DNA of 42,434 nt from Pseudomonadota bacterium (GTDB taxonomy: Bacteria > SZUA-182 > DTGQ01), in the NCBI GenBank assembly GCA_030625085.1, contig DAOURK010000025.1, positions 1-42,434 of the forward strand, read 5' to 3'. Positions 1,072 through 21,060 of the stretch are shown piece after piece (the stretch's first letter is position 1; each line of letters opens with the position of its first letter). Under the pieces are notes generated by a model. That model was not told where the DNA came from. It saw nothing but the letters and a program-made list of their open reading frames with translations, and made no database searches. Made by a program: the position numbers and the translations under genes.

Positions 1072-1088
1072 ATAAAAGGAGGGGTTTG

Positions 1089-1856: not shown

Positions 1857-3552
1857 TAATCCGGTAAGTTATATTGAATCAACAGGCATTCCCTACAAGA
1901 TACATGGAACTGAAATTATTTTACAGTATTGTCCATATTGTGAAGGTCCGGACAAAAATGGGTATGATCATTTCTATTTAAATACAGAGAAAAAGACCTT
2001 TTATTGCCACAAATGCGGCTGTAAAGGGAACCTCTATCGGTTTAAATTGGACAGGGGAGATATTTCACCTGTTACCAAGGCCAAGAAAATCGAATATAAG
2101 AGGCCAAAAGAAAACAAAGAGCTTACTTTTGATACAGGTAAATTTTATCGATGGTATCACAAAGAAAGAGGTATTAAGCCGGAAATTCTCGCAAAGTTCA
2201 AAGTAGGATTTAAACAGCCAGATAGCCAGATAATCATTGTTTATCAGTATTATAATGAAAATAATGTTCTTATTAACAGAAAATATCGCACACTTGATAA
2301 AAAGAAAATCTGGACAGAGATGGCGGCTGAAAAGAATTTCTATGGCCTTCAGTTTATCGACTTCACCAAACCTCATCTTTTTATCGTCTCAGGCGAAGAC
2401 GATCAACACACGCTCATACAGTTAGGGTTTAATAACGTTCTCTCCGTTCCTTACGGTGATCTAAATTATTCACCGGCGATGCATAAAATAATAAATCGAT
2501 TTTCGGAAATTTATTTGTTTTTTGATAATGACCCATCCGGCCAGGCCGGGGCGCGAAAATTTGCCGGAAAAGCGGGTTTGGCAAAGTGTCAGAATGTAAT
2601 TTTACCGTTTAAAAATGCCAGGGAATGTATTTTACAGGGTCTCGGGTATGATGATTTTATTAAAGAATTAAGTGAGGCTCAATACTTTAAGCACGAGGAA
2701 ATCATTAAGGCCAGCGATTATAAAACCGACTATATGAAATTTATTAATAACTCGAAAAATTTTATAGGCCGGCCAATTAGAATACCTAATTTTAATCGGA
2801 TTGTCGGGGGGATAAGGCTTTCAGAATTAACAGTTTTAATTGGGCATACGGGCCGAGGCAAATCAACCATTGCTTGTAACTTTTTGAGATGGGCTGAAGA
2901 GGTGGGTTTTAGTTGTATGATTATGAGCTTTGAAAATAAACTCAGTTCGGTTATAACCAAACTGATTGAAATTTATTCTGAAGAACGTATTAGGATATTT
3001 GATGCGATCGAGGAGCGATATAAATTATTACAAAGTGACGCCTGGATAGAGCAACAGTATGACAGATTGAACCGGAGAGAAATCTATTTTCTAAATAAGA
3101 GCAAACACGCCAAAGACGGGTATTATAGCCTTCAGAGGCTGGAGAATATTATTGATTATGCCACTAAATTTTATAACGTGAATGTATTTGTTATTGATCA
3201 TTTACATTATTTTTTAAAAATAAGTGATGCTCGAAACCCCGTCATGAAAATTGATGAGGCCATGAGACAGATTAAGCAGTGGACTGAGAAATATAATATC
3301 CATATTCTGCTCTTGGTCCATCCTAGCATGATAAAGGATAATAAGGGAAATCTTGTTAAATTGGGGCTTAATTCCGGGAAAGGGGCCAGTTCAATTAGCC
3401 AGGAGACGGATAATTTTTGGGTTATTTCTCGCAAGGATGATGCGGGGAAATATTATTCCAAATTGGAAGTTTTAAAAAACAGGGATATAGGAAAAACTGG
3501 TACCATATCTTTTAGGGTTTTAGATAATCTAAATACTTATTTAGCGGAATAA
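1837..3552 (+). CDS. Bifunctional DNA primase-helicase (T7 gp4-like)
   Basis: The protein has 571 residues in three parts. A CHC2-like zinc finger has Cys at about 32, 35, 57 and 60 (YCPYC...YCHKC). A Toprim domain has the acidic segment SGEDD near 190 and FFDNDPSG near 228. A RecA-like helicase domain has Walker A GHTGRGKST near 335, SFEN near 368, Walker B-like VFVIDHLHYF and LLLVHPS near 490. This order is that of phage T7 gp4 and Twinkle-type enzymes, which unwind DNA 5' to 3' and prime the lagging strand. ATG 1837 follows AAGGA at 1821 and gives a short overlap with the replication gene. An earlier in-frame ATG at 1759 would add 26 unlike residues. It implies the element can replicate autonomously. 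Confidence 0.85.
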   Translation: MTTAIVDNPVSYIESTGIPYKIHGTEIILQYCPYCEGPDKNGYDHFYLNTEKKTFYCHKCGCKGNLYRFKLDRGDISPVTKAKKIEYKRPKENKELTFDTGKFYRWYHKERGIKPEILAKFKVGFKQPDSQIIIVYQYYNENNVLINRKYRTLDKKKIWTEMAAEKNFYGLQFIDFTKPHLFIVSGEDDQHTLIQLGFNNVLSVPYGDLNYSPAMHKIINRFSEIYLFFDNDPSGQAGARKFAGKAGLAKCQNVILPFKNARECILQGLGYDDFIKELSEAQYFKHEEIIKASDYKTDYMKFINNSKNFIGRPIRIPNFNRIVGGIRLSELTVLIGHTGRGKSTIACNFLRWAEEVGFSCMIMSFENKLSSVITKLIEIYSEERIRIFDAIEERYKLLQSDAWIEQQYDRLNRREIYFLNKSKHAKDGYYSLQRLENIIDYATKFYNVNVFVIDHLHYFLKISDARNPVMKIDEAMRQIKQWTEKYNIHILLLVHPSMIKDNKGNLVKLGLNSGKGASSISQETDNFWVISRKDDAGKYYSKLEVLKNRDIGKTGTISFRVLDNLNTYLAE

Positions 3553-3568
3553 AAGGATGGTGATTCGG

Positions 3569-4129
3569 ATGGCTATAAATGATATCGAATACCAGATTTT
3601 GCCATTGGTTGATGCAATCAACAGCACAGGCATGTTCCAGACTTTTTCATCATGCGGGGGGCACTTTACGAAGATCGGAAAGAATGATATTTATGCCGAC
3701 TTTGGTTGCGCTGAAGTAAAAGAATACCCTAACGTTAAATTTAGAGCGGCACGCGGTATCAGTAACGATGATGCGGACAATTTTCTTACCAGGTTATCGG
3801 GAGTAGCGAAAGATATTTTTTTTGACCCAAAATGCGGGGTAATACTTTTTGCTGTAGGAAAAAAATACCTGCCTACCAATCTTGGAGGGCCTTATTATAT
3901 TTTAGAATTTCGTCCGTTCCCCCGCTGTCAGGATGTCCGGAAAGCCGTAGATGATGCATTTTTTTGTGTGGCACAGATCATTAGAGCCGGTATTAACCGA
4001 AATTTTCCCGGTGTGTGCCAGGCCAACGGCAACCTAAAAATTGTCAGTAGTCCGTCCGGGTCGATACTTGCCCCTGCTACAGGTTTTATACCAGTTGGCC
4101 TAGCTGAAAGCATTAAGGAGATATACTAA
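3569..4129 (+). CDS. Unknown element protein with SCGGH motif
   Basis: This 186-residue protein begins with a predicted helix and then TFSSCGGHF near residues 25-33. Ser-Cys-x-Gly-His motifs of this kind occur in TYW3-like proteins and in small uncharacterised phage proteins, where Cys and His may bind metal or act catalytically. Further Cys lie near 47, 87, 119 and 134. The middle part (ILFAVGKKYLPTNLGGPYYILEFRPFP) looks like beta strands. There is no signal peptide or membrane segment. ATG 3569 has better spacing from AAAGGA (3552) than ATG 3557. The gene starts 16 nt after the primase-helicase stop and is probably cotranscribed. Real gene, function unknown. Confidence 0.6.
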   Translation: MAINDIEYQILPLVDAINSTGMFQTFSSCGGHFTKIGKNDIYADFGCAEVKEYPNVKFRAARGISNDDADNFLTRLSGVAKDIFFDPKCGVILFAVGKKYLPTNLGGPYYILEFRPFPRCQDVRKAVDDAFFCVAQIIRAGINRNFPGVCQANGNLKIVSSPSGSILAPATGFIPVGLAESIKEIY

Positions 4130-4178
4130 AATTGACCATGATTGAACGTGTTGCAAAACATAATAGGAGGATACACAC

Positions 4179-4373
4179 ATGGAAAAGAGATATTTAACCC
4201 TTCCCGAGACAGCAGAATTGTTAAGTATACCGGAAAAATCATTGCGGGCTATGGTAGCACCTTCAAGCCAAAATAAGTTCAAAATAAACGGGCAAATGGT
4301 TAAGCCGGCGAGGATCAACAAGAGATTGCGTTTCGACAGGAAAGAAATAGAAAATTTAATGGCCAGCAATTAA
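4179..4373 (+). CDS. Excisionase-like MerR/HTH_17 DNA-binding protein
   Basis: This 64-residue protein starts KRYLTLPETAELLSIPEKSLRAMV, the classic HTH_17 pattern in which a turn after LLSIPEKSL begins the recognition helix. It ends RLRFDRKEIENLMA, the wing and final helix typical of Xis-type proteins. Such proteins bend DNA at attachment sites and bias the integrase toward excision. GGAGG about 8 nt upstream supports the start. It lies 69 bp upstream of the integrase, the usual xis-int order. A role as a plain transcription factor is possible. Confidence 0.7.
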   Translation: MEKRYLTLPETAELLSIPEKSLRAMVAPSSQNKFKINGQMVKPARINKRLRFDRKEIENLMASN

Positions 4374-4442
4374 ATTTATTGAAATCCCTTTATCGTATGC
4401 TAATATAGGTTTAATCTAATTACAACGATGAGAGGAAAAGCT

Positions 4443-5627
4443 ATGGCAATTTTTCAGCAGTGTCCAATCTGTAGATTAAAGCAAAAAAATGCTTTAAAAA
4501 AGTGCAGGAAATGTGGTGAAGACCTGGTAAAAGCAAAGAGATCCCAAAGGGTTAAATATTGGATTGCCTACCCGATCCCCGGGGGGAAATATAAATGGCA
4601 GTGTATTGGGACTTCACTCTCCCAAGCGCGGGATGCGGATGGAAAGATCAGGGCCGAGAAGAGGGAAAATCCCTTTTTTGATGTTAAAAATAATCGGTTA
4701 ACCTTTCAGGAATTAACAGATTGGTATTTGAATTTGCAAAAGGTTAAAAAGAAAAAATATTTCCCTACGTTAACCTATCGTCTGAACAAATGGAATATGC
4801 TCTTTGGTGATACGATAATCACCCATATTAAAAAATCGGATATTGACAATCATCAGGAAATGAGGGTTGACGCGGGATGGGCTGCCAGTACAATTGATCA
4901 GGAAATCGGAGCTGTTAAGACGATGATACAGGCCGCTATTGATGATGATAAGATTGATGCAAATATTATTAAACCATTTCGGAAAATCGAAAGGCTGTTA
5001 AAAGCTAATTCAAACGCACGAGACAGAATAATTACTATTGATGAATTTTACCGGCTTTTGGAAACAGTCCCGGATTATACGCAAGGGATCATTTCTCTTG
5101 GTTTTTTTGGCGGAATGAGACTGGGAGAGATTCTGGAACTGACCTGGGATAAGGTTTTCCTTGGCCATGAGATCCCGCATATCAAGCTTGAAAAGGATGA
5201 TACCAAAGAAGGCAAAGGAAAAGTCATCCCTCTTGCAACCGGAATTAAAGGGAACCCATATGAAATCTTAAAAGCGATTCCGCGAGGCTTGCATGATGAT
5301 CATGTATTTTTATATCAGGGAAAGCCTGTGAGTAGGATCAGGGATGGATTTAAAAAAGCATGTGATGATATCGGGCTGGTATATGGTCGGTTTGTGAAAG
5401 GCGGTTTTATATTTCACGATTTACGGCATTGCTTTAGCACCTACATGCGCCGAGCCGGTAATAGTGAAACAACGATCATGAAAATTATGGGCCATTCCCC
5501 CGGTAAAGGGCTTGAGATGCATTTCAGATATAGCACATTCGAGTTAGATGATTTAAAGGTTGCAATTGAGAATTTGGAAAATTATTTTACTGCAATATTA
5601 CCCAATATTAACCATGGGAAACCTTAA
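4443..5627 (+). CDS. Tyrosine recombinase (integrase) with N-terminal zinc ribbon
   Basis: The protein has 394 residues. The N-terminus carries CPIC (about 7-10) and CRKCG (about 21-25), a four-Cys zinc ribbon. A SAM-like core-binding domain follows at about 85-175. The catalytic domain has the Arg of GFFGGMRLGEILEL, HDLRH (HxxR), MGHS and a candidate nucleophile Tyr in FRYST near the C-terminus, so all four signatures are present. It catalyses site-specific integration and excision. ATG 4443 follows AGAGGA with 7-nt spacing; ATG 4428 lacks a ribosome site. The stop lies 64 bp from the 3' end of tRNA-Leu, the usual arrangement for tRNA-targeted elements. Confidence 0.92.
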   Translation: MAIFQQCPICRLKQKNALKKCRKCGEDLVKAKRSQRVKYWIAYPIPGGKYKWQCIGTSLSQARDADGKIRAEKRENPFFDVKNNRLTFQELTDWYLNLQKVKKKKYFPTLTYRLNKWNMLFGDTIITHIKKSDIDNHQEMRVDAGWAASTIDQEIGAVKTMIQAAIDDDKIDANIIKPFRKIERLLKANSNARDRIITIDEFYRLLETVPDYTQGIISLGFFGGMRLGEILELTWDKVFLGHEIPHIKLEKDDTKEGKGKVIPLATGIKGNPYEILKAIPRGLHDDHVFLYQGKPVSRIRDGFKKACDDIGLVYGRFVKGGFIFHDLRHCFSTYMRRAGNSETTIMKIMGHSPGKGLEMHFRYSTFELDDLKVAIENLENYFTAILPNINHGKP

Positions 5628-5656
5628 TGAATATTAACCAAATATTAACCATGGGG
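5594..5656 (+). repeat. Short direct repeats between integrase and tRNA (candidate integrase arm sites)
   Basis: Four copies of AATATTA(A)CC occur: 5594 (AATATTACCC), 5604 (AATATTAACCATGGG), 5630 and 5641 (AATATTAACCATGGGG). The last two are in tandem with 11-bp periodicity. The repeats straddle the 3' end of the integrase gene and stop about 36 bp before the tRNA. Integrase arm-binding sites are short direct repeats near attachment cores, so this is the likely role, unproven. Confidence 0.5.
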
Positions 5657-5691
5657 TGTTTTTTAAATTCTTAAATTCCCCGCAAAGCAAG

Positions 5692-5776
5692 TGCCGAAGG
5701 GGGGACTCGAACCCCCACAGAACTACGTTCTACTAGACCCTGAATCTAGCGCGTCTGCCAATTCCGCCACTTCGGC
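5692..5776 (-). tRNA. tRNA-Leu (CAG anticodon)
   Basis: Read on the minus strand, the acceptor stem GCCGAAG pairs with CTTCGGC, with discriminator A at 5692. The D-arm follows, then anticodon stem CTAGA/TCTAG with loop TTCAGGG (anticodon CAG, 5740-5742). A long class II variable arm (TAGAACGTAGTTCTGT) and T-arm GGGGG-TTCGAGT-CCCCC complete it. CCA is not encoded. The long variable arm and anticodon identify leucine. Its 3' end faces the integrase and is the probable attachment site; the core would lie within the T-arm/acceptor sequence. Confidence 0.97.
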
Positions 5777-6228: not shown

Positions 6229-6876
6229 ATGGGTATATTCTCTCCAAAAAGCCCAAAATTTATAGACATGATAGACCTTTATCTGCAAAAGGGTTCCGAG
6301 TGCATGGAAGTCTTTCAAAAGGCCCTTTTGATCTATATGGAAAAGGGAGACTGTCAAGACTTCCAACAATTAGTTGAGCAAATCAATCAGGCTGAATCAT
6401 CGGCCGACGGCCTGCGACGCCAATTAGAGCTTACCCTTTATGAGAAAGCCTTGATTCCGGAATCCCGTGGAGACCTTTTGGGCATTATGGAAGCAGTAGA
6501 TAAAATCCCGAACAAGGCCCAAACGGTTGTTTTTCTCCTGGACACAGAAGGATTGCACATTCCCGATTGCTTTAAGCCGGATTTTCGACAAATTGTGCAT
6601 ATCAATTTTCAGACCTTTGAAACAGTTTGCCGTGCAGTTAAGGCCATTTTTTTGAGTATCAAAGAAGTGCGAAAATTTACTGATGAAATTAACCGCAAAG
6701 AGAGCAGTTCCGATCTCATCGAGAGAGAATTGATCCGAAAGGTTTTTCGGAGTCAAATTCCCATAGGAGAAAAAATTTTGTTAAAAGAGCTGATTATCGA
6801 ATTGGGAAACATATCCGACAAGGCGGAAGATGCTGCCGATCGATTAAGTATCATGGCCGCCAAAAGGCTCATATAG
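6229..6876 (+). CDS. PhoU-like/DUF47 accessory protein of Pit transporter
   Basis: This 215-residue soluble protein is predicted almost all alpha-helical, with the PhoU-like repeat pattern of acidic helices: EQINQAESSADGLRRQLELTLYEKALIPESRGDLLGIMEAVDKIPNKA in the first half and INRKESSSDLIERELIRKVF...ELGNISDKAEDAADRLSIM in the second. The paired ExxxxD signatures bind metal clusters in this family. Members partner with Pit-type phosphate permeases and are thought to modulate them. GGGAGG upstream supports the start. The permease gene begins 4 bp after its stop, indicating cotranscription. Confidence 0.88.
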   Translation: MGIFSPKSPKFIDMIDLYLQKGSECMEVFQKALLIYMEKGDCQDFQQLVEQINQAESSADGLRRQLELTLYEKALIPESRGDLLGIMEAVDKIPNKAQTVVFLLDTEGLHIPDCFKPDFRQIVHINFQTFETVCRAVKAIFLSIKEVRKFTDEINRKESSSDLIERELIRKVFRSQIPIGEKILLKELIIELGNISDKAEDAADRLSIMAAKRLI

Positions 6877-6880
6877 ACTG

Positions 6881-7801
6881 ATGATTGAACTTTCAGCCGG
6901 ACTTGTTTTAGGATGGGCCCTGGGGATAAATGATACGGCCAAAACATTCGGGGCAGCAGTCTCCGCGCAGATGATCTCTTACCGGATAGCCGCTTTTTTG
7001 TCGGCCGTTTTTATTATTCTGGGGGCTTTTATAAACGGCAGCAGGGGGCTGGAAACCCTGGGCAGTTTAACCGCCCAGACAAACAAAAGTGCTTTTATTG
7101 TTTGCCTGGCTGCAGCAGCCACGATTACCATTTTAACCCTCATTCATCTTCCGGTGTCCACCTCTCATGCCGTAGTTGGAGGCATTTTAGCTATTGGATT
7201 TTTGCAGGGCCACGTTGATTTGGGGGCTTTGCAAAAGGTAATAGTGTGCTGGATCTTAACCCCAATAGGCGGAATATTTACTGGGGGCCTTTTTTTTATC
7301 ATTTTCGGCCAAATACTGAGCCGTCTGAATCTTCATTTTCTCAGATACGATTGGCTCATGCGAAGATTGCTTTTTCTGGGAGGGTGTTATGGGGCGTATG
7401 CCATTGGGGCCAATAATGTGGCTAATGTAACCGGTGTATTTTTTAAGGCCGGAATGTTGAACATGTATCAGGCTATCCTGTTGGGAGGAGTGAGTATAGC
7501 CCTTGGGTCCTTAACCTTCAGTAAAGGCGTAATGCGAACCCTGTCCAGCCGGATCTTTTCGCTGGATGCCTTTTCCGCTTTTGTGCTGATCTTTTCCGAG
7601 GCTTTGACCCTGCATATCTTTGCCTTGGTCGGGGTCCCGGTTTCCATTACTCAAGCCGCCATTGGGGCTGTTCTGGGTATTGGTTTGGTTAAAAATTTTA
7701 AAGTAATTACGCGAAGCACCCTTTATAAGGTTTTCGTAGGTTGGATGCTCACTCCCTGCCTGTCCTTTTTATTTTCCTTTTTTTTATATCGAGGATTTTA
7801 G
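6881..7801 (+). CDS. Low-affinity inorganic phosphate transporter (Pit family)
   Basis: This 306-residue integral membrane protein has about 8-10 hydrophobic segments. Two inverted signature repeats mark the PiT/PHO-4 family: GWALGINDTAKTFGAAV near residues 11-27 and AYAIGANNVANVTGVFF near 170-190. VSTSHAVVGG (about 91) and VSITQAAIG (about 263) are paired with them. The family symports phosphate (usually as metal-phosphate) with H+ or Na+. Coupled to the PhoU-like gene before it. The next gene is convergent. Confidence 0.9.
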   Translation: MIELSAGLVLGWALGINDTAKTFGAAVSAQMISYRIAAFLSAVFIILGAFINGSRGLETLGSLTAQTNKSAFIVCLAAAATITILTLIHLPVSTSHAVVGGILAIGFLQGHVDLGALQKVIVCWILTPIGGIFTGGLFFIIFGQILSRLNLHFLRYDWLMRRLLFLGGCYGAYAIGANNVANVTGVFFKAGMLNMYQAILLGGVSIALGSLTFSKGVMRTLSSRIFSLDAFSAFVLIFSEALTLHIFALVGVPVSITQAAIGAVLGIGLVKNFKVITRSTLYKVFVGWMLTPCLSFLFSFFLYRGF

Positions 7802-7882: not shown

Positions 7883-9871
7883 TTATTTTTTATCCAGCAA
7901 CTCTCTCACCTTTATTAAAAGCCTCTGGGGAGAAACCGGTTTAGAGATAAGGTCAACTCCTCCCCCATTAAAAATTCCTGTTCTATTGATTATATTGTGA
8001 TCATACCCGCTCATAAAAAGCGCCTTAATATCGGGTCTTATCTTTTTTATTTCTTCATAGGCATCTTTTCCATTCATTTTCGGCATGATTACATCAAATA
8101 AAAGAAACTGAATTTTTTCCATATTTTCCTTAAACTTTTTTACCGCATCCTCTCCGTTTATAGCCTCTATTACCTTATATCCATATCGTCTGAATAAATC
8201 TTTTGAAAGGTTTTTAACCGGTTCATCATCCTCGGCTATCAGCAAGGTCTCTGTTCCCCCTTTGGGCAGGAGTGAAGATTTTGCTTTTTTACCTTCAATC
8301 TTCGCCTCAATTATGGGCAGATATATTCTAAACTGTGTTCCTTTCCCCGGTTGGCTGCTAACGTCAATATATCCATTATGCTGTTTAATAACTCCATATA
8401 CCGTTGAAAGCCCAAGGCCTGTGCCTTTCCCAACCTCCTTGGTAGTAAAAAAGGGATCAAATATTCTTTCCTGGGTTTTGTTATCCATTCCCATACCTGT
8501 ATCTTCAACTTTTATCAAGGCATAACGGCTCGCCCTTTCATCTTTATTTATATGATCATCACTGATATATTTTTCCTCCAGGTTCACAGATTCCGTGGTT
8601 ATGGTTAAAACTCCCCCATCAGGCATGGCATCCCTGGCATTGGTAGCAAAATTAAACAGGATATGATCTATTTGTCCGGCATCAGCCAGAACAATAAGGT
8701 CTTCTTTTGCCAAGGTAACCTTAAATTCTATATTATCATCAATAAGTCTGAGCAAAATTTTCTTTGTGCTCTTGATAATCTTATTAAGATTTACCGGATT
8801 GAAGGTTATGTTCTGTTTTCGACTAAAGGCAAGAAGGCTTTTGGTAAGATTAGCCGCCCGCTGAGCAGCGTCAAGGATATTATCAACACCTTCCCTCAAT
8901 GGGCTGTTTTTGGTTATCTCCATCTGTAAAAGACTTGCATGTCCTATTATAGCCGTTAAAATATTATTAAAGTCATGGGCGATACCACCGGCCAAAGTCC
9001 CGATAGCCTCCATCTTCTGGGCATGATTCAGTTGTCTTTGAAGCTGCTTTTTTTCCGACTCCCTTCTCTTTAATGCCTCAGACATATCATTAAAGGCCTT
9101 GGCCAGTTTTCCTATTTCATCCCGCGTCTCAACAGGCACCTTTTCAACAGCCCCTCCCCTGCCAACAGCTTTAACCACCTCGGTCAATTTTTTAAGAGGT
9201 CTTGTTATCTCATGAGCAAGAAAAAAAGTAACTACAACCCCTAAAAAGAAAAAAATAATCCCCAGTACAATACTGTTGTTCAGCAAACTCTTTACTTTGC
9301 TATTCAGCCCTTCCTTATCAAGCTTTATACTAACAAATCCAATTATAGCGCTCTTTTCCCGGCGCGCATCCTCTTGAAATAAAATTGAGTCCTCTGTAAA
9401 ATACGTTGCCTCTGATATTACCGGTGCCCAAAAGTCCAAATCGTCCTTATTCTCCACGTTAAGGGGATGTTGCACCTCTTTGAGCCTTGTGAATATTTGA
9501 TTCAGCTTTTGACCCCCCCGGCGCCCATTTCCCCCCCGGGCCTTTATTTTCTTCTTTTGCTTATATAATAACCTTCCCTGCAGATTAAACACTGAGGCGC
9601 AAAGGACATCCCCTTGTTGTAAAACCCCTTCAATAGGGCCCTTGAGCAGGGAAATGTTTTCCGAAAACACCCCAATCCTGGAATTATGGGCTAGAAGACC
9701 GGTTAAAATTGTACCTGCTCTTATCAATTTATCTTTTTGGCATTTATTCACAAATTGAATAAAAAAGGTGGTGAAGCTAACAGAGATGATTATGATAAAA
9801 ACAGTAAATACAGCAAAAATTTTAAAACTAAATTTTTCAGGAAATCCTTTTAACAAATTAAAAAACTTCAT
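7883..9871 (-). CDS. Membrane-bound hybrid sensor histidine kinase
   Basis: The protein has about 662 residues. TM1 lies at about 14-36, a periplasmic sensor domain at about 37-200 with an Arg/Gly-rich insert (ARGGNGRRGG), TM2 at about 200-222, then HAMP. The HisKA H-box GGIAHDFNNIL has phospho-acceptor His299. The HATPase domain has NARDAMPDGG, VEDTGMGM and GKGTGLGLSTVYG. The C-terminal receiver domain has LLFDVIMP with phospho-acceptor Asp593. There is no output domain, so a partner regulator must act in trans. ATG 9871 follows GAGAGG; TTG 9883 would overlap the upstream stop. It lies 8 bp downstream of the binding-protein gene, suggesting that protein supplies its signal. The sensed ligand is unknown. 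Confidence 0.88.
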   Translation of the reverse strand: MKFFNLLKGFPEKFSFKIFAVFTVFIIIISVSFTTFFIQFVNKCQKDKLIRAGTILTGLLAHNSRIGVFSENISLLKGPIEGVLQQGDVLCASVFNLQGRLLYKQKKKIKARGGNGRRGGQKLNQIFTRLKEVQHPLNVENKDDLDFWAPVISEATYFTEDSILFQEDARREKSAIIGFVSIKLDKEGLNSKVKSLLNNSIVLGIIFFFLGVVVTFFLAHEITRPLKKLTEVVKAVGRGGAVEKVPVETRDEIGKLAKAFNDMSEALKRRESEKKQLQRQLNHAQKMEAIGTLAGGIAHDFNNILTAIIGHASLLQMEITKNSPLREGVDNILDAAQRAANLTKSLLAFSRKQNITFNPVNLNKIIKSTKKILLRLIDDNIEFKVTLAKEDLIVLADAGQIDHILFNFATNARDAMPDGGVLTITTESVNLEEKYISDDHINKDERASRYALIKVEDTGMGMDNKTQERIFDPFFTTKEVGKGTGLGLSTVYGVIKQHNGYIDVSSQPGKGTQFRIYLPIIEAKIEGKKAKSSLLPKGGTETLLIAEDDEPVKNLSKDLFRRYGYKVIEAINGEDAVKKFKENMEKIQFLLFDVIMPKMNGKDAYEEIKKIRPDIKALFMSGYDHNIINRTGIFNGGGVDLISKPVSPQRLLIKVRELLDKK

Positions 9872-9879
9872 GTAACCTC

Positions 9880-10824
9880 TCAATACACCATTCTTGTTTT
9901 GTGGACAACGTAATCATCCATATCCGTTATATTCAAACTATGCGCTATCTTATGAGAAAATTTTATTCCCAAATTGTCTGCCGCCTTCAGATTGATTGAT
10001 AATTGTATCTCCCCTGCCCTGGCTGCTGAGACGGCCCTCACATCTTTTCCCGATAAAATTTTATTGACCATCCTGGCGGCTTGCTCACCTAACTTAGCAG
10101 CATCAATGTTTAATGACATAAAAGCGCCCATTTCAACATACTTATCTGAAAAAGATAATATAGGTATTTTATTTTCAATGGAAAAAAGCAACAAGAACTC
10201 AACCATTTCAGAACAGATAACGCTTGTATCCGGCAGCATCCAAAAAGCATCTATATTACTCTTCATATTTTTTATCGCTATTACAGAGGGGACTTGTGCG
10301 GGATGAGTAACTTGGCCGGTCATCAATTCAAGGTCCCTTTTTTCAGCAACTTGCCGTGCCTTTTTTATAAAAGGACCTGTTTTCTCCGGATCAAATAAAA
10401 GGCCTATTGTTTTTAAACCGGGCATAACTTTTTGAAAAACAGCTATCTGTTTTTCAGCAGATACACGCATACTTACCCCGGTGAAATTCTTTTGTCCGGA
10501 AGAAATTATAGATTCAGGATTCAGCACCATAAGATAAACAACGGGTATATGGGTAATCTCTTTAACTCTTGAAAGGGCCTCTTTACCAATGGTCAAAATT
10601 ATATCGGGTTTGATTTCTCTAATTCTATCCTTTATATTCAGGCCATTTAATTCTGAAACAATAAGGTTTTTTATTGAACAAGGACAGCTTTTTTTAAATC
10701 CCCGCAAAGCATCTTCGTATGGTTTGATCTTCATGCTTTGGAGAACCAAAACATTTTGGTATCCCTCGGTTAAACCAGGGAGAAGTAATAAAATAATCAG
10801 TAATAAAAAGATTTTTTTTATCAT
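9880..10824 (-). CDS. Periplasmic binding protein (TrpX/COG2984-like) without transporter
   Basis: This 314-residue protein has a clear signal peptide (MIKKIFLLLIILLLLPGLTEG) followed by two Rossmann-like lobes. PDIILTIGKEALSRVKEITHIPVVYLMVLNPE and GLLFDPEKTGPFIKKARQVAEKRDLEL are the hallmarks of the ABC_sub_bind family, which includes amino-acid-binding TrpX-like proteins. No permease or ATPase is nearby. It is instead coupled to a hybrid histidine kinase, so a role as periplasmic co-sensor is more likely than uptake. The mature N-terminal part carries a CPC motif (Cys47, Cys49), unusual for the family as far as I recall and a possible metal ligand. ATG 10824 starts the signal peptide; an upstream in-frame extension to 10917 would run back through its own predicted promoter. 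Confidence 0.75.
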   Translation of the reverse strand: MIKKIFLLLIILLLLPGLTEGYQNVLVLQSMKIKPYEDALRGFKKSCPCSIKNLIVSELNGLNIKDRIREIKPDIILTIGKEALSRVKEITHIPVVYLMVLNPESIISSGQKNFTGVSMRVSAEKQIAVFQKVMPGLKTIGLLFDPEKTGPFIKKARQVAEKRDLELMTGQVTHPAQVPSVIAIKNMKSNIDAFWMLPDTSVICSEMVEFLLLFSIENKIPILSFSDKYVEMGAFMSLNIDAAKLGEQAARMVNKILSGKDVRAVSAARAGEIQLSINLKAADNLGIKFSHKIAHSLNITDMDDYVVHKTRMVY

Positions 10825-10839
10825 TTTAGAATAAAAATA

Positions 10840-10866
10840 TTGACAAAAAACAATATGTTCTATAAT
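10840..10866 (+). promoter_or_regulatory. Predicted sigma-70 promoter for the TonB receptor operon
   Basis: Perfect hexamers TTGACA (10840-10845) and TATAAT (10861-10866) are separated by 15 bp, shorter than the ideal 17. Short spacing often makes a promoter activator-dependent. It would drive the receptor gene at 10966 and probably the peptide gene. Confidence 0.55.
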
Positions 10867-10916
10867 CTCTAGGCTGATAATGTTTAGTATATGAACATAT
10901 TTATTATAGATGTTCA
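10852..10916. promoter_or_regulatory. Candidate operator: repeated TGTTC/GAACA half-sites
   Basis: AATATGTTC (10852-10860) is the inverted complement of GAACATATT (10893-10901). TGAACA (10892-10897) is also inverted against TGTTCA (10911-10916). The half-sites abut the plus-strand -10 box and bracket the minus-strand -10 box, so one regulator could control both divergent transcripts. Confidence 0.45.
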
Positions 10917-10931
10917 AAAAAGAAATCGCAA
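10903..10931 (-). promoter_or_regulatory. Predicted promoter for binding protein/kinase operon
   Basis: On the minus strand TTGCGA (10931-10926) and TATAAT (10908-10903) are separated by 17 bp. Transcription would begin near 10895 and reach the binding-protein ATG at 10824. It is divergent from, and adjacent to, the receptor promoter. Confidence 0.45.
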
Positions 10932-10965
10932 CTATTATTTTTATTAAATAATAAGAAAAATCTTT

Positions 10966-12870
10966 ATGAATAATTATTTTTTGAAAAGGGGCATCTTCTT
11001 TCTTTGTTTAATGCTCATCCTACCCTGTTTTTGCCAAAGGGCAAACGCCCACCCTGAAGAGGAAATTTCATTACTCCGCATGTACTATTCCGAAGAAGCC
11101 CTTGTGGTAACACCTTCAAGAAATCCAAAACCAATATCTCAGATAGCTGAAAATATCACCGTAATCACTTTAGACGAAATAGAGGCCATGAATGCCCATA
11201 CCCTGAACGATGTTCTCAAAAATATCCCCGGAGTGCAGATAAAATTAAGGGGCGGCCCTGGTAGTACAGGAGACTTACATATTCAAGGTTCTGAATTCAA
11301 CCATGTCCTTTTAATGATTGACGGGATTGCTATTAATAATCTGGCCAGCGGCTTTGCCGATATTGGGGCGTTTCCTGTTCAGAATATCGGGAGAATAGAA
11401 ATAATAAAGGGTCCTGCCTCTTCCTCATGGGGATCGTCTCTTGGGGGAGTAATAAATGTCATAATCAAGTCGGCCGGCATTATGGAAAAACCGTGGGGCT
11501 CCATATTTCAATCAGGTGGTGAAAAAAAGACCCTGGACTCAAGGGTTGAATTATCGGATAAAGCAGGGAATTTAGGTTATTACCTCTCTGCAGGGAATCT
11601 ATTTAGTGATGGACTGAGGCCGACTAACTCCTTTAAAGGGAAAAACCTTTATACGAAATTAAGATGGGATCTAGCAGATTCGACAACCCTCATATTCTCT
11701 TTGGGGTATAATGAGGGGGCACGAGAGGAAGCTCAATTTCGCACTATTCTCTTTCCCGGAGCTCCTGAGGATTATATAGTTGACAGTAATGACTTTGAGT
11801 ATCTTTTCTCCACCTTGAGGCTAAATTATTTTCTCAATAGTAAATTCGATTTAACTCTTTCTTTCCAGACCTCAAAGCAAGAGGTAATAAAATTTACTCA
11901 TCTGCTGAGCACAGGCCTTGAACTGGGAAAGGATACCTATGACGTTTCAATTTATGGCGGAACCTTTCTGCTTAAAGGGAAATATCGCTATCATAATATA
12001 GTGCTCGGCGCTGACTTTGAACATGGAAAACTGAAATCAAATGCCATCGTAGATAAAAAACAGGAACGTGAAAAAAAAGCCATCTTTGTAAATGATACGA
12101 TAATAATTAACAAAGTTTCCTTCATACCCGGCATCAGATATGATCATATCAGTATCCACGATGAATTCCTGAGTCCAAGCCTTGGAATAAGCTATAGGGC
12201 GGGTGAAAAGACTATTCTTAGGGGATATATGGCCAAGGGTTTCAGCACCATACCTCTTAGTAAAATCTACATTGATGACCCCAGGTTCGTGGTTAATAAC
12301 GATCTAAAGGTTGAGAAGGTCTTCTCAATTCAGGCCGGTATAGAATCAACCTCCCTCAAATATATCTGGCTCAAATCCTCTTTCTTTAAGCACAATATTA
12401 GTGCTGCTTATGCCAATGCACCCTGGCCTGAAGATCCATCTAAAATTACAGCGGTTAACCAAAAAAAGCAAAGAAGGCAGGGTTTTGAGATAGAAATAAA
12501 GACAGCACCTTTCTTTAATACTTCCCTTCTGACCGGTTATGTTTTAATTGATGCTAAAAACATGGATACAGGGGAAAGATTAGCGGATGTTCCAAGGTAC
12601 ACCTATGATATCGGCCTTCAACACGATAATAAAAAATCCTTTCAAGCTTCCCTTAAAGGGCATTATCTTCGCTACGAGGACCCAGCCGGTATACAAAAAA
12701 CCAATTTTGTCTGGGACCTTTATCTCACGAAAAAAAATCATCAAAGTGGGAATAAAGCTTTAAAACTTTTCCTTTCCGGCCACAATATTTTTGACGGCCA
12801 ACAATATCTTTGGGAGGAGTATAAGAATCCGGGAAGATGGATAGAGGCCGGCCTAAGATGTAACTATTAG
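10966..12870 (+). CDS. TonB-dependent outer-membrane receptor
   Basis: The protein has 634 residues. A signal peptide covers about 1-28 and a TonB-box-like EEALVVTPSRNP follows at about 44-55. The plug domain includes ITVITLDEIEAMNAHTLNDVLKNIPGVQI, LLMIDGIAINN and IEIIKGPASSSWGSSLGGVINVI, standard receptor-plug signatures. The rest is a beta-barrel of alternating aromatic strands, ending in Tyr as outer-membrane barrels usually end in an aromatic residue. The plug resembles vitamin B12/siderophore receptors of the BtuB/CirA kind, but substrate cannot be read from sequence. The peptide gene follows 77 bp downstream on the same strand, which suggests the receptor retrieves the mature peptide or its metal complex. 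Confidence 0.9.
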   Translation: MNNYFLKRGIFFLCLMLILPCFCQRANAHPEEEISLLRMYYSEEALVVTPSRNPKPISQIAENITVITLDEIEAMNAHTLNDVLKNIPGVQIKLRGGPGSTGDLHIQGSEFNHVLLMIDGIAINNLASGFADIGAFPVQNIGRIEIIKGPASSSWGSSLGGVINVIIKSAGIMEKPWGSIFQSGGEKKTLDSRVELSDKAGNLGYYLSAGNLFSDGLRPTNSFKGKNLYTKLRWDLADSTTLIFSLGYNEGAREEAQFRTILFPGAPEDYIVDSNDFEYLFSTLRLNYFLNSKFDLTLSFQTSKQEVIKFTHLLSTGLELGKDTYDVSIYGGTFLLKGKYRYHNIVLGADFEHGKLKSNAIVDKKQEREKKAIFVNDTIIINKVSFIPGIRYDHISIHDEFLSPSLGISYRAGEKTILRGYMAKGFSTIPLSKIYIDDPRFVVNNDLKVEKVFSIQAGIESTSLKYIWLKSSFFKHNISAAYANAPWPEDPSKITAVNQKKQRRQGFEIEIKTAPFFNTSLLTGYVLIDAKNMDTGERLADVPRYTYDIGLQHDNKKSFQASLKGHYLRYEDPAGIQKTNFVWDLYLTKKNHQSGNKALKLFLSGHNIFDGQQYLWEEYKNPGRWIEAGLRCNY

Positions 12871-12902
12871 ATAATAGGAGGATTTATTAAAAGCCATAAA
12901 AG

Positions 12903-12917
12903 GTCTCCTTTGGAGAT
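12903..12917 (+). other. Small hairpin upstream of the peptide gene
   Basis: TCTCC and GGAGA form a tight 5-bp stem with a TTT loop in the short leader between the receptor stop and the peptide start. Its role is unclear; it could stabilise a processed peptide mRNA. Confidence 0.3.
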
Positions 12918-12947
12918 AGGGCGCACCTTTAATCAGGGGGTGAAATT

Positions 12948-13073
12948 ATGAAAAAGAAAAATATGCATGAGAAAAAAAGGAATAAAAAGAAAATTATAAT
13001 CCTCGACACTGGCCTTGGAGATAATATTATTCCTAGGATGTGCTGCTGGGGGCCTTTTTATCGCTATAGATAA
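12948..13073 (+). CDS. Putative RiPP precursor peptide with Cys-Cys-Trp core
   Basis: A 41-residue open frame starts ATG 12948, with AGGGGG 7 nt upstream. The first 15 residues are Lys-rich (MKKKNMHEKKRNKKK), then IIILDTGLGDNIIP, and the C-terminus is RMCCWGPFYRYR. A charged leader, a short hydrophobic conserved-looking stretch and a Cys/aromatic-rich C-terminal core match precursors processed by radical SAM/SPASM maturases, and such a maturase lies just downstream. The layout resembles the geopeptide and selenobiotic families described from genome mining; from memory, so the exact family needs checking. Cys32 and Cys33 are both encoded by TGC, with no in-frame TGA. No protease or exporter gene is adjacent. 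Confidence 0.75.
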   Translation: MKKKNMHEKKRNKKKIIILDTGLGDNIIPRMCCWGPFYRYR

Positions 13074-13089
13074 AAGCCTTTTTAGCTAA

Positions 13090-13127
13090 TTCGGAGTATT
13101 TTTTCCGAACATTATTTTCTTTTAATT
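13090..13127 (+). terminator. Weak hairpin/T-rich terminator after the peptide gene
   Basis: TTCGGA (13090-13095) and TCCGAA (13104-13109) form a 6-bp stem with an 8-nt loop, followed by a T-rich run. It lies 16 bp after the peptide stop. A leaky terminator here would raise peptide over maturase expression. Confidence 0.4.
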
Positions 13128-13536
13128 TTTTGACCACAAGAGAATAAGGTTAGTAAAAATCCGACCCTGTCTTCAAAGGGGCCTCCTAAGCAATTCCATT
13201 ACAAAGCGAAGGGTTTATACTATCTCAGGCAGAGGGAATAAGCATAGGAAAGGAAGTAGGAAGTCGCCCTTCAAATTACGAATTATGAATTACAAATTAC
13301 TGATTGGCCGGCAAGCCGCATAAAAAATAAAAATTTCTATGCTAACAAGTTTTTATACCAACTTGCAATCAAACGATGAAAAAGTCATTGCGCTGAATAA
13401 AGCGCCACGGCATTTATAATCTTAGATCGTTCACTGCGTTGGCAATGATAATAAATTATTATTGGATGCCATTTGGTAATGAATTACCCCCCCCGCAAGC
13501 AGTGGAGTATCTATAAAGGAAATGCTCATTTTCAAT
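13128..13536. other. Repeat-rich non-coding gap between peptide and maturase
   Basis: No supported gene. TCATTGC (13385-13391) and GCAATGA (13442-13448) are the inverted ends of a 64-bp degenerate palindromic repeat of the kind dispersed in many genomes. The word aaaataaaaatttct (near 13325) recurs near 18628. A C-tract lies near 13487. The gap seems to have grown by repeat insertion. Confidence 0.4.
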
Positions 13537-13563
13537 CGCCGCAAGCGGCGGGGAATTTACCCC
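13537..13563 (+). promoter_or_regulatory. Double hairpin just upstream of the maturase ribosome site
   Basis: CGCCGC/GCGGCG (13537-13550) and GGGG-AATTTA-CCCC (13550-13563) are adjacent stems ending 10 bp before the AAAGGA of the maturase gene. They could protect a processed transcript or modulate translation. Confidence 0.35.
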
Positions 13564-13585
13564 AAAGGGATTAAAGGATATGGAT

Positions 13586-14917
13586 ATGCAGATGTCCACA
13601 TATACTAAAATATTTCCCTATCGAGAAAAACCCGGCTATGCCCTCCTTTATTCCACCAAAAGGGCATCAACCATCCTGGTTGATGAATCCCTTGTAAGAT
13701 CAATAGAGGAGGGAAGGCTTTCAGCCTCTGATAAGGAAACCCTTTTCAGTCTCGGCTTTCTTGTGCCTGATACAGACAAGGAAAAAAAGGAGATGCTCAG
13801 CCTTTTTGATGAGGCCAATAGAAAAAACAATAGATTCAGTGCCCTCCTTGTGATGAATCTTGACTGTAACCTTGACTGTAAATACTGTTATGAAGGCGGG
13901 ATGAAAGGCAAGCATTATATGTCTCTGGAAACCGCGGACATCCTGATCGATTATATTGAAAAGCAGCATCTTTCCAATGAAAAGGACGTTTCCCTTGATT
14001 TTTATGGAGGCGAGCCCCTACTCAGTTTTGAACAAATCAAGTATATTTCAAAAAAATTGAAGCTCTCAGCAGAAAAAAAAGGGCGGAACTGCTACTTTGG
14101 CCTGGTGACCAACGGCACAATGTTGACCGGAAAAAGGGCTGAGGAACTGGCCCCATTGGGCCTTAAAGAAGCCAAGATAACCATTGACGGCCCGAGGAAA
14201 AACCATAACCTATTCAGGCCTTTTAAATCTGGCTTAGGAAGCTTTGATCACATCATTAAAAATATCAAAGAAGCCTGTGATTTCATCAAAATCCAGATAG
14301 GCGGAAATTTCACTCGCGAAAATTACAGGGTCTTTCCCCAACTTCTTGATTACTTTCTGAAAACAGGTATCACTCCTGATAAAATATCTATGGTAAAGTT
14401 TGACCCTGCGAGCGAAACAATGGAGAAATGCGGACTCCCCGATTTTAACGAGGGATGTAATTCTATTAATGAGCCATGGCTCTTTGAAGCCAGCATCTTT
14501 CTAAGGGATGAAATATTAAAGAGGGGCTTTTACACACCCAAGCTAAGACCAGCTAGCTGTATGATAGAGTCCAAGGATGATATTGTGATTAATTTTGAGG
14601 GCACCCTTTATAAATGTCCTGCTCTTTTAGGCAAGAAAAACTTTGCGGTTGGTAATTTAAAAACAGAAATAAGAGACTATAGGAAATCTTATAAGCTTGA
14701 TTTTTGGAAAAAACAGGAATGCCTTGACTGTGCATATCTTCCCTTATGCTTTGGCGGGTGCAGATATATGAAACTGCTGCAAAAGGGAAAGATTGATGAT
14801 GTTGATTGCAGAAAGCCTTATCTTGATGCCACCCTGGAGACTTTCATCAAACAGGAAATAAAATATGGGCTGAAAACTGCCGGAACTTATAGCATGTACC
14901 ATTTGACTTTGCGGTAA
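13586..14917 (+). CDS. Radical SAM/SPASM peptide maturase (geopeptide-like)
   Basis: The protein has about 443 residues. The N-terminal 80 residues (YTKIFPYREKPGYALLYSTK..., LFSLGFLVPD) resemble the leader-binding winged-helix region of SPASM maturases. The radical SAM core has CNLDCKYC (Cys94, 98, 101) for the SAM-binding cluster, DFYGGEPLL and VTNGTML. The C-terminal SPASM domain has Cys in YKCPAL (about 343), ECLDCAYLPLCFGGC (about 378-391) and DC (about 404) for auxiliary clusters. Such enzymes install thioether, C-C or other links in RiPP precursors. ATG 13586 has 7-nt spacing from AAAGGA; 13580 is too close. An IS inserted in the original TAG stop has replaced the end with nine IS-encoded residues (YSMYHLTLR). 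Confidence 0.85.
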   Translation: MQMSTYTKIFPYREKPGYALLYSTKRASTILVDESLVRSIEEGRLSASDKETLFSLGFLVPDTDKEKKEMLSLFDEANRKNNRFSALLVMNLDCNLDCKYCYEGGMKGKHYMSLETADILIDYIEKQHLSNEKDVSLDFYGGEPLLSFEQIKYISKKLKLSAEKKGRNCYFGLVTNGTMLTGKRAEELAPLGLKEAKITIDGPRKNHNLFRPFKSGLGSFDHIIKNIKEACDFIKIQIGGNFTRENYRVFPQLLDYFLKTGITPDKISMVKFDPASETMEKCGLPDFNEGCNSINEPWLFEASIFLRDEILKRGFYTPKLRPASCMIESKDDIVINFEGTLYKCPALLGKKNFAVGNLKTEIRDYRKSYKLDFWKKQECLDCAYLPLCFGGCRYMKLLQKGKIDDVDCRKPYLDATLETFIKQEIKYGLKTAGTYSMYHLTLR

Positions 14918-16292
14918 AAAACAGTTATATTTATCGTATGGCACAACAAGGTAAAGCGCTTTCGCATGGGCAAAGATTTTCAATAATAACCTTAAAGAAG
15001 TCTTATGATGAAGAAAAGAAAGCGGGACCAACAGTACCTACCAAAGATTCAATCGGCCGAGTTACACGAGGCCTTGATATTGGGAGAAGGACTGTTGAAA
15101 AGATTCTTTCAGATTACAATAAAAATGGAAAAAATCTTATTGAGGTGCCACCTAAACCCCGGGGCAAACCACCTTTAAGAATCAGTGGTGACTTGACACC
15201 TCATATATGTCATCATATTCGTTCCGTGAATATACACGGAGGGCATATAAGTGTTCGAAATCTTCGTGCATGGCTTTTGCAGGAGTTTGACACCGACATT
15301 CCACTTATGACGCTTTGGCGAGCATTACGAAGGATAGGCTTTAGTTACGGCAAGAACAAGCGTCGCTCCGCCTTGAAAGAACGAGATTACGTTATTACTG
15401 CACGACGAAAATATCTACGAGAAAAAATATCGAATCGACATACTCGACGTAGCGAAGTGTATCTTGACGAAACATATATCAATAAAAACCATTCTAACGA
15501 TAATACATGGTTTCTTGACGCTGACGGTCCGTGGGTAAATAAGCCATCAGGCAAAGGGCCTCGTCTTATTATCGTGCATGCAATCACTGCAGAAGGATGG
15601 GTAGAGGGTGCGGAATTGGTATTTCAAGCAAAAACCTGTACTGGTGATTATCATGGTCAGATGAATTACGAAAATTTTTCAAAATGGTTCACCGAACAAC
15701 TGCTGCCCAACATACCAGCCGCATCAACCATAATAATGGATAATGCCAAATATCATAATATTTTGTCAGATGATACATTCCCGACACCACGGAGTACGAA
15801 AGGAGATTTACAGGCATGGTTGGAAAACAATCACCCCGAGTTTGGCTACCACACTGATCCTTCCAGGTTAAAACCGGAGCTGTATGAAATTTGTAAAAAA
15901 ATTGCTCCACCACCTGAATTCAAGCTTGACCGAATAGCTGAAGAACAAGGCCATCGAATCCTACGTACACCGCAATACCATTGTGAGCTTCAACCGATCG
16001 AGTCGTGTTGGGGGACCGTTAAAAATTACTGTCGGGATCATTGTGAATTTTCGATGAGCAGTCTTCAAAAACACTTACCAATTGGATTTTCGAAAGTGAC
16101 TCGATCAACCTGTCAAAAACTTATTGAAAAGGTACGCAAACAAGAAGATGCCTTCTGGAAGGAAGATGCAGATATAGATGCACAGGAAATGATTGAAGAG
16201 AGAAAATACAAATCCGAAGCATGTTATATTAATGCAGAGGATGAAGATGATTTCGAGTAAATAATTACCGCAAAGTCGTCTGGTACATGCTA
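14890..16292 (+). mobile_element. IS630-type insertion sequence, complete
   Basis: A 1403-bp element with 28-bp terminal inverted repeats. The left end 14890-14917 starts TAGCATGTACC and ends GACTTTGCGGTAA; the complement of 16265-16292 agrees at 25 of 28 positions. It is flanked by TA at 14888-14889 and 16293-16294, the TA target duplication typical of IS630/Tc1-mariner elements. It carries one intact transposase gene. It sits between the maturase and a truncated AAA gene. Confidence 0.92.
14938..16260 (+). CDS. IS630-type DDE transposase
   Basis: This 440-residue protein has an N-terminal helix-turn-helix region (SIGRVTRGLDIGRRTVEKILSDYNKNG, about 38-62) and a second winged-helix part with PLMTLWRALRRIGFSYGKNKRRSALKERD. 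The DDE_3 catalytic domain follows: YLDETYINK (Asp177), IIMDNAKYHN (Asp268) and PIESCWGTVKN (Glu355). The Asp268-Glu355 spacing, 86 intervening residues, is far longer than the roughly 34 usual for IS630; an insertion including GDLQAWLENNHPEFGYH explains it. All catalytic residues and both ends are present, so the element may still be active. Confidence 0.9.
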   Translation: MAQQGKALSHGQRFSIITLKKSYDEEKKAGPTVPTKDSIGRVTRGLDIGRRTVEKILSDYNKNGKNLIEVPPKPRGKPPLRISGDLTPHICHHIRSVNIHGGHISVRNLRAWLLQEFDTDIPLMTLWRALRRIGFSYGKNKRRSALKERDYVITARRKYLREKISNRHTRRSEVYLDETYINKNHSNDNTWFLDADGPWVNKPSGKGPRLIIVHAITAEGWVEGAELVFQAKTCTGDYHGQMNYENFSKWFTEQLLPNIPAASTIIMDNAKYHNILSDDTFPTPRSTKGDLQAWLENNHPEFGYHTDPSRLKPELYEICKKIAPPPEFKLDRIAEEQGHRILRTPQYHCELQPIESCWGTVKNYCRDHCEFSMSSLQKHLPIGFSKVTRSTCQKLIEKVRKQEDAFWKEDADIDAQEMIEERKYKSEACYINAEDEDDFE

Positions 16293-18856: not shown

Positions 18857-19282
18857 ATGTTTAATTTGAGGAGAGGAGAAAAAGGTTTTACCCTCGTTGA
18901 AATTATGGTTGTGCTTGTCATTTTAGGTGTACTGGCAACAATCTCAGTTCCGGTGTATACAGGTTATGTGCGTAAGGCAAGAATCAGTGAGGCTATTTCT
19001 AATGTAGGGGCCTATGCCAATGCTATGCGAATCTATAAAATGGAGCATGCAGAGTATCCACCTTCAACCCAAACGCTTAACGTTAGTATTGATGAATACT
19101 ATTTCGGTATTACATGGGTACTTAGCTTTGATAAGCTAACTGCAACAATGACGATAACGCCTAAGACCACGAGTGACATACCTGTAGCAGACACAGGAAC
19201 ATATATATTAGATAAAGACTATAAAGGTGCTTGGTCAGGTGTCCTAGTCGAAAAATATGCCAGCTACCTTAAGCGTAGCTAA
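18857..19282 (+). CDS. Type IV prepilin (major-pilin-like)
   Basis: This 141-residue protein has a class III leader: cleavage after Gly10 (RRGEKG/FTLVEIMVVLVILGVLATISVP), with Glu at mature position 5 and the hydrophobic N-terminal helix of pilins. The mature protein continues with the alpha-helix YVRKARISEAISNVGAYANAMRIYKMEHAEYP, which is the T4P/pseudopilin layout. There is no C-terminal disulfide pair. It could be the major subunit of this pilus, being the first and best-conserved prepilin, with AGGAGA ribosome site. A prepilin peptidase is not in the window. Confidence 0.88.
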   Translation: MFNLRRGEKGFTLVEIMVVLVILGVLATISVPVYTGYVRKARISEAISNVGAYANAMRIYKMEHAEYPPSTQTLNVSIDEYYFGITWVLSFDKLTATMTITPKTTSDIPVADTGTYILDKDYKGAWSGVLVEKYASYLKRS

Positions 19283-19376
19283 GCGTACCACTACTTTAAA
19301 AACCGATTTTAATCTATATCAAAATATATTAATAAAATATATTTTAAATAAATTACACCGTGTAAAAAAAAATTAG

Positions 19377-19802
19377 ATGACCGATCATAATGATCTAGTA
19401 TGTTTTCAAGACATGAATCCCTTAGACTGCCGAGGATTAAGCCTTATTGAGATTATGGTTTCGGTAATGATCCTCTTAATTACTATTGCCGGATTTATGA
19501 CTACCTATTCTTATTTCAGCAGACAAGTCACTAAATCTCAACAAAAACGTTCTGCTACGCGGTTTGCGCAAAAAACATTAGAAGAATATATGGCAGACCC
19601 TAATTTTTTACAAAAAGGGCCCATTACCAACAAGGATATTACTATTGATTCACAACGAAATCTTAAAGGCACATTAGAAATAAAATTTTTTCCTGAAGAG
19701 ATCATTTCGGACTCGAAGTGGAGAGAAATTGAATGCGGAATCCACTGGACAGATGGCAATGTTTCTCTTAATGTTTCTCTTACTACCATCTGGGGAAAAT
19801 AA
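19377..19802 (+). CDS. Minor prepilin, PilV/MshO-like
   Basis: This 141-residue protein has an unusually long 20-residue leader with cleavage predicted after Gly20 (NPLDCRG/LSLIEIMVSVMILLITIAGFMTTYSYF) and Glu at mature position 5. The following segment (RFAQKTLEEYMAD) is typical of PilV-like minor pseudopilins that prime fibre assembly. The first mature residue is Leu instead of the usual Phe/Met. It abuts the next prepilin gene with no gap, so the two are cotranslated. Confidence 0.78.
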   Translation: MTDHNDLVCFQDMNPLDCRGLSLIEIMVSVMILLITIAGFMTTYSYFSRQVTKSQQKRSATRFAQKTLEEYMADPNFLQKGPITNKDITIDSQRNLKGTLEIKFFPEEIISDSKWREIECGIHWTDGNVSLNVSLTTIWGK

Positions 19803-20552: not shown

Positions 20553-20951
20553 TCCTAACAACTAAACATTGCCATAGGATGATAATAAACATGGGGTAAG
20601 CTCTTCATCTATTTATTTTCAACTTTGAAATCATTACTGGATAAACCTGAAAACCGGAAGACATGTTTTAAAACTACAAAAAAAATTTCTCTACGATTTA
20701 ATTACCCTAACCGAGATAATAAAAAGAGCCCCTTTCTCAGCCACTGGGTGAAGCAAAAAATTAATGGGATCAAAGATGGCTGAATATACAATTAGATTAT
20801 AGCATGTAATTTCATTATTATTATATAGATATAAATCCATATAAAAAATTTAGCGAATTATATATTCAAAATTATAATCTTACAGCTATGACGCATGAAT
20901 TTTAGTTGCTGTCATATCAAGGGTTGGCAGGTAATCTGTAAAAAAAATTTC
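20553..20951. other. Non-coding gap after the prepilin genes
   Basis: No supported gene. The perfect inverted repeat TCAGCCA (20737-20743)/TGGCTGA (20777-20783) encloses GGGTGAAGCAAAA, faintly like part of a c-di-GMP riboswitch but without its other conserved elements. The remainder is AT-rich. Confidence 0.35.
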
Positions 20952-21012
20952 GCAAATTTTTTAATCATAGGTCATTGACAGCCAATATTTCGGGATAAAG
21001 ATGTGCGTCAGG
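20952..21012 (+). repeat. Family C conserved block, copy 2 (upstream of pilus assembly promoter)
   Basis: About 61 bp sharing GCAAATTTTTT, TCATTGAC, CAATATTTC, ATAAAG and GTGCGTCAGG with 18354-18416. It ends 19 bp before the -35 of the promoter at 21032. Confidence 0.6.
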
Positions 21013-21031
21013 TGATAATCTTAACTTCACA

Positions 21032-21060
21032 TTGCCTTTTTGAATGGGTAATGGTATAAT
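21032..21060 (+). promoter_or_regulatory. Predicted sigma-70 promoter of the pilus assembly operon
   Basis: TTGCCT (21032-21037) and a perfect TATAAT (21055-21060) with 17-bp spacing lie 48 bp before the ExeA-like start. Downstream genes follow with gaps under about 35 bp, so this promoter may drive 21108-31942. Confidence 0.65.

Follow-up and report, generated by a model that had tools for sequence, protein, structure and literature searches.

The window, by which we mean the whole stretch of 42,434 nucleotides that was analysed, contains at positions 7883 to 14917 what looks, from its sequence, like a geopeptide-type RiPP cassette, and the same genes are found together in dozens of related bacteria. 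The features are:

7883 to 9883, minus strand: hybrid histidine kinase (Pfam: sensor region, HAMP, HisKA, HATPase_c and receiver; likely start ATG at 9871)
9880 to 10824, minus strand: stand-alone periplasmic binding protein, PF04392 (Pfam, 1.1e-35), with a signal peptide from start analysis
10825 to 10965, no strand: divergent promoter region between binding protein and receptor, from the sequence
10966 to 12870, plus strand: TonB-dependent outer-membrane receptor (Plug, PF07715, 7.4e-22)
12948 to 13073, plus strand: precursor peptide MKKKNMHEKKRNKKKIIILDTGLGDNIIPRMCCWGPFYRYR with the leader motif IIILDTG, preceded by an AGGGGG ribosome-binding site
13041 to 13070, plus strand: core CCWGPFYRYR of the aromatic subtype, from an alignment of 12 precursors
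13273 to 13575, no strand: short interspersed repeats of at least three kinds between precursor and maturase (43 matches in the same genome)
13580 to 14917, plus strand: radical SAM/SPASM geopeptide maturase (TIGR04280, 636 bits, cut-off 400)

All five genes are uninterrupted and lie at the coordinates given in an initial annotation, which had placed a kinase, a binding protein, a TonB receptor, a 41-residue frame and a radical SAM enzyme here. Precursor and maturase are separated by 506 nt in the window versus about 60 nt in most relatives, mostly because short repeats, each present in several to dozens of copies in the genome, fill most of the gap. An IS630-like transposase (14938-16260; 82.9 bits against a curated cut-off of 100) begins 21 nt 3′ of the maturase stop. 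Outside the cassette, a PhoU-like (DUF47) gene is paired with a PiT-type phosphate/sulfate transporter (6229-7801), and a primase/helicase-like protein (1759-3552) and a tyrosine recombinase (4428-5627) next to a tRNA-Leu (5691-5776) probably belong to an integrated element (1086-5776). Genes for a pseudopilin, PilM/N/O-like proteins, a secretin, a PilB/GspE-type ATPase and a GspF-like protein (18857-29670) make up a cluster for either type IV pili or type II secretion. Carriage on a plasmid was considered and rejected, as no match was found.

The maturase matches the model for the geopeptide radical SAM maturase (TIGR04280) over 427 of its 428 positions and far above the cut-off, so that the guess of a geopeptide system in the initial annotation was correct. 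The suspicion that the maturase and precursor types might already be known was likewise borne out, since the pair is named in NCBIfam (TIGR04280/TIGR04229). A search of the window's genome with TIGR04280 gave 12 matches, of which just one, the window maturase, lies above the cut-off. The radical SAM motif CX3CX2C is present (C96, C100 and C103), and the SPASM motifs are complete, with C327, G341 and C346 in CX9-15GX4C, C381, C384, C390 and C394 in CX2CX5CX3C, and C410. For comparison, about 120 loci were sampled from two groups, the family of the window genome itself and another class, presumed from the family name to be that of Geobacter; they were gathered by whole-genome searches, and a scan of genome contigs yielded a single relative. 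The three radical SAM cysteines and the SPASM cysteines 327, 346, 381, 384, 390, 394 and 410 are invariant in 87 maturase relatives, and C293 is kept in 86. Three maturases (L011-L013; 27-32% identical) fall below the TIGR04280 cut-off, and within their short flanks neither a precursor nor cassette partners were detected. The best solved relative of the window maturase, 5wgg, bears the deposited name radical SAM domain protein, and we take it to be the thioether-forming CteB; the next-best NCBIfam families are maturases of Cys-rich peptides. Both matches support a cysteine chemistry and resemble what is seen for the thioether-forming SPASM maturases CteB and PapB with their Cys-rich substrates. 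The window maturase is nevertheless far under the cut-off of the PapB ranthipeptide model (NF047865; 150.7 bits, cut-off 340), and a thioether product is putative.

The initial annotation took the 41-residue frame for the precursor, and the comparison agrees with this. We defined the precursor pattern as a leader [ILV]xVL[DE]xG followed by CC and then 3-22 further residues, located upstream of the maturase on its strand. A same-strand frame with leader motif and CC precedes 81/89 related maturases, whereas the strict pattern has no match in 796 kb of flanking DNA, and a chance ORF was therefore rejected as an explanation. Among 89 distinct precursors the core, counted from CC to the C-terminus, is mostly 9-12 residues long and has Arg or Lys near its end in 70. 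Asp or Glu is found in 4/89 cores and His in 1/89, and besides the Cys pair nothing chelator-like is conserved. A natural variant (L063) keeps the arrangement and has a precursor with a single Cys, ICFGSYFIVRG. Sigma-54 promoters were found upstream of 7/81 precursors, against 1.6 expected, and are not a general feature.

The window precursor and 11 relatives form an aromatic-core subtype, CC-x3-[FY]-x2-[FYW]-R, which is missed by the geopeptide precursor model and is new here. CC-x3-[FY]-x2-[FYW] is present in all 12 precursors, and Arg comes next in 10. The initial annotation had suggested a search against RiPP and TIGRFAM models, which was positive for the maturase and negative for the precursor: TIGR04229 (cut-off 30 bits) does not match the window precursor at E<=10, and it gives 11.5 bits for the aromatic precursor of L051 and 40 bits for a Geobacter-type precursor (L059). 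The cassette thus shares with the known geopeptides the leader-CC precursor architecture and a maturase well above cut-off, and differs in its unrecognised aromatic core. It also differs in layout. In the known geopeptide layout, receptor, binding protein and kinase diverge together from the peptide genes; in the window the receptor shares the strand of the maturase, and only binding protein and kinase diverge. The same holds for the other loci of the aromatic subtype (family relatives L009 and L019, plus L051, L054, L057, L074, L099, L103 and L111), in which the receptor is on the maturase's strand and binding protein and kinase are divergent wherever the full locus is visible. In a set of 75 cassettes, the aromatic motif occurs in 7/7 with the receptor on the maturase strand versus 2/68 others. 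The exact arrangement, kinase and binding protein divergent from receptor, precursor and maturase, recurs in L051, L054, L099, L103 and L111, where the outer flanking genes are unrelated. Two of these loci carry a second aromatic-type precursor just 3′ of the maturase (L099 at 10435, L103 at 5579), and the relative L019 has a second aromatic-subtype cassette (639-1939) with an interrupted maturase frame and an intact receptor and precursor.

The five-gene neighbourhood, on whose linkage the initial annotation had laid most weight, is conserved across genomes. Among 48 cassettes whose flanks extend for 8 kb or more on each side, the TonB receptor and the PF04392 binding protein are both present in 48/48 (the latter as 42 clustered ORFs and 6 found by tblastn), while a histidine kinase within 12 kb and a precursor are each present in 45/48. 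Receptor and binding protein are less than 300 bp apart in 56/67, and binding protein and kinase are on one strand and less than 300 bp apart in 37/56; several loci of the Geobacter type have their kinase away from the binding protein. As kinases are abundant, the kinase link is weaker than that between receptor and binding protein, and the argument for it lies in adjacency and not in presence. TIGR04280 maturases were found in 102/277 genomes of the presumed Geobacter class. Maturase homologues do co-occur with the receptor: 98 of the 277 genomes have a maturase and a cassette-type receptor, 4 a maturase only, 11 a receptor only and 164 neither (Fisher p about 2e-56, kinship ignored). A survey of 10 genomes gave 2-6 PF04392 binding proteins and 1-9 Plug-domain receptors per genome, which makes chance linkage in the cassette negligible. 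In at least three complete genomes (G568, G541 and G547) the sole Plug-domain receptor detected is that of the cassette, which suggests that this system is what TonB transport serves in these genomes, and in G645 both receptors are cassette receptors. In the cluster list, of which a few representatives were profiled, no family of exporters, permeases, proteases or immunity proteins reached four loci. A dedicated exporter in the cassette was rejected, as none recurs across loci and no C39-type peptide exporter/peptidase is recognisable in the window's genome.

The longest ORF of the binding protein reaches 10917, and ATG 10824 is the likely start, giving the signal peptide MIKKIFLLLIILLLLPG; the ORF overlaps that of the kinase by 4 nt. 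The protein scores 123.7 bits with PF04392 (threshold 25.9) and 91.7 bits with the TrpX tryptophan binding protein model (NF041285), under its cut-off of 390. At the equivalent place in L051, L054, L099 and L111 lie kinases that are 44-50% identical to the window kinase. Upstream of receptors, strong Fur-like sites are not enriched, and best matches in receptor promoters are distributed much as in shuffled sequence, apart from a slight excess at 12/19 positions only. Fur regulation was rejected on these grounds.

The nearest solved relative of the receptor is BtuB, over the N-terminal part only, and the receptor scores 120.6 bits with the vitamin B12 receptor model TIGR01779, under its cut-off of 599.7. 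To relate receptor and peptide, we compared 108 cassettes, using 105 pairs with maturases 75-99% identical and shuffling within maturase clusters. Given maturase identity, receptor identity follows core identity with a partial rank correlation of 0.45, which 0/1000 permutations reach; at >80% maturase identity 4/1000 do, and at >85% the permutation test is without power (251/1000). Binding protein and core show no such covariation (-0.17). The pair L065/L067 illustrates this, with identities of 87% for the maturase, 91% for the binding protein, 70% for the leader, 56% for the receptor and 33% for the core, and the pair L171/L065 behaves alike. The receptors of L065/L067 differ mostly at alignment columns 240-400, presumably the barrel and ligand-binding loops. 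The pair L061/L070, with its low receptor identity, had been considered as a receptor swap and was dropped as lead example, since L070 has two precursors and is ambiguous. Since it is the receptor and not the binding protein whose identity tracks the core, recognition of the peptide probably lies with the receptor, and the receptor link in the initial annotation is strengthened by this covariation, which is new here. Such a pattern would follow from a division of labour in which the variable core is read by the receptor, leader and Cys pair are read by the maturase, and the binding protein recognises a feature that does not vary. In part the covariation reflects co-inheritance.

A further 15 loci (L140, L142-L155) have a receptor and a binding protein, with a kinase nearby in most, and no precursor or maturase in the sequence examined; L146 is on a short contig. 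Several of these receivers come from different species of one genus, each of which also has a full cassette. Such recurrent, putatively receiver-only modules are new here. In L138 (7709-13072) a truncated maturase lies beside an intact precursor, receptor, binding protein and kinase.

The gene set, the conservation of the precursor, the intact catalytic cysteines, the co-occurrence, the covariation of receptor and core and the producer-less receivers are read directly from sequence, and from them we infer how the cassette may modify, export, take up and sense its peptide. The maturase would bind the leader through the IIILDTG motif and form a cysteine-based, probably thioether, crosslink in the core of 9-12 residues that starts with Cys-Cys. 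The leader would then be removed, and the short product could exit the cell via an unlinked exporter. The TonB-dependent receptor would recognise the product, set specificity and bring it into the periplasm, where the binding protein, for which the cassette encodes no partner ABC permease, might present it to the hybrid kinase. A PAS/sigma-54 activator is encoded near the kinase in many relatives and was found in 25 loci. The layout of binding protein and kinase, and the layout only, is reminiscent of LuxP/LuxQ-type sensing, in which a periplasmic binding protein acts with a hybrid kinase; here too the binding protein is presumed to signal through a hybrid kinase, whereas the ligand is thought to be a peptide that needs an outer-membrane receptor. 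As no permease recurs and the binding protein goes with a kinase, sensing is favoured over nutrition. On balance we lean, by a little, towards a geopeptide RiPP cassette that combines a producer (precursor and SPASM maturase) with its own receiver, and that senses both its own and its neighbours' peptide and does not import it as food. The more specific proposal of a radical-SAM-modified, hypervariable pheromone with a co-diversifying TonB receptor, a binding protein and a histidine kinase, overheard by receiver-only non-producers, is put forward tentatively, as we would not quite expect it to hold in full.

The main rival of sensing is a peptide metallophore, a reading that we consider unlikely. 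The modified Cys-Cys peptide would chelate a metal outside the cell, receptor and binding protein would recover the complex and the kinase would report metal status. The precedent is methanobactin, whose operon (MbnA, MbnBC, MbnT, MbnE, MbnM) likewise encodes a RiPP together with a dedicated TonB receptor and a binding protein of the periplasm (PMC7558416). The window instead has a radical SAM/SPASM maturase in place of MbnBC and a histidine kinase in addition, its binding protein is of PF04392 and not OppA-like, no MbnM-like efflux pump was seen in the cassette, and MbnB and MbnC are absent among the five genes, all of which match other families in Pfam and NCBIfam. The invariance of the Cys pair speaks for a chelator, producer-less receivers fit xenophore piracy, and the combination of hypervariable cores and matching receptors would recall competition of the pyoverdine type. 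On the other hand, the scarcity of acidic residues (4/89) and His (1/89) in the cores disfavours metal binding, L063 has a single Cys, no inner-membrane permease recurs, and strong Fur-like sites show no clear excess, Fur being the sole metal regulator examined. The proposal of the initial annotation that the peptide binds metal through its Cys pair is so far unsupported. A narrow-spectrum antibacterial peptide that enters relatives through the receptor, with the sensor controlling production, would account for variable cores that covary with the receptor and could make targets of receptor-only strains. We regard it as improbable, since neither an immunity gene nor an exporter recurs, and the receptor stays beside the producer genes or, in non-producers, with binding protein and kinase.

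Still less probable is a cofactor, for which the peptide would be trimmed to a diffusible compound that leaks from cells, serves as a public good and is taken back up through the receptor. PQQ (PqqA-F, PqqU, PqqT) is made in this way from a precursor peptide, recaptured through the TonB-dependent PqqU and bound by a periplasmic protein, and many genomes hold the receptor only, 23% of PqqU carriers making PQQ (PMC12124388). Such a route would need no exporter. A cofactor would, however, be expected to have a fixed core, whereas the cores here are hypervariable; the window receptor scores 31.7 bits with the PqqU model (NF041535), under its cut-off of 1200; and PqqU is generally without synteny to the PQQ genes, unlike the tightly syntenic cassette with its sensor kinase. 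Methanobactin and PQQ are the best functional comparisons, and neither has this combination of maturase and sensor. Least probable of all the readings, in our view, is that the receiver responds to some unrelated ligand and owes its tie to the peptide genes to a shared regulon only. Receivers without producers and a binding protein that does not covary with the core would be compatible with this, whereas a receptor that follows the core while maturase and binding protein stay constant would not be expected.

We found no paper on geopeptides in our literature search. Named in NCBIfam, they are now tied to a dedicated receptor and sensor, and the covariation yields a prediction of receptor-peptide specificity. 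If the preferred signalling interpretation is true, the cassette would represent a peptide pheromone system gated by TonB, whose hosts, as far as they can be judged from the family name, appear to be metal-reducing bacteria of soils and sediments. In one locus (L059, 8177-15515) a single receptor stands next to a tandem array in which two maturases are accompanied by several precursors, whose leaders are nearly identical and whose cores differ.
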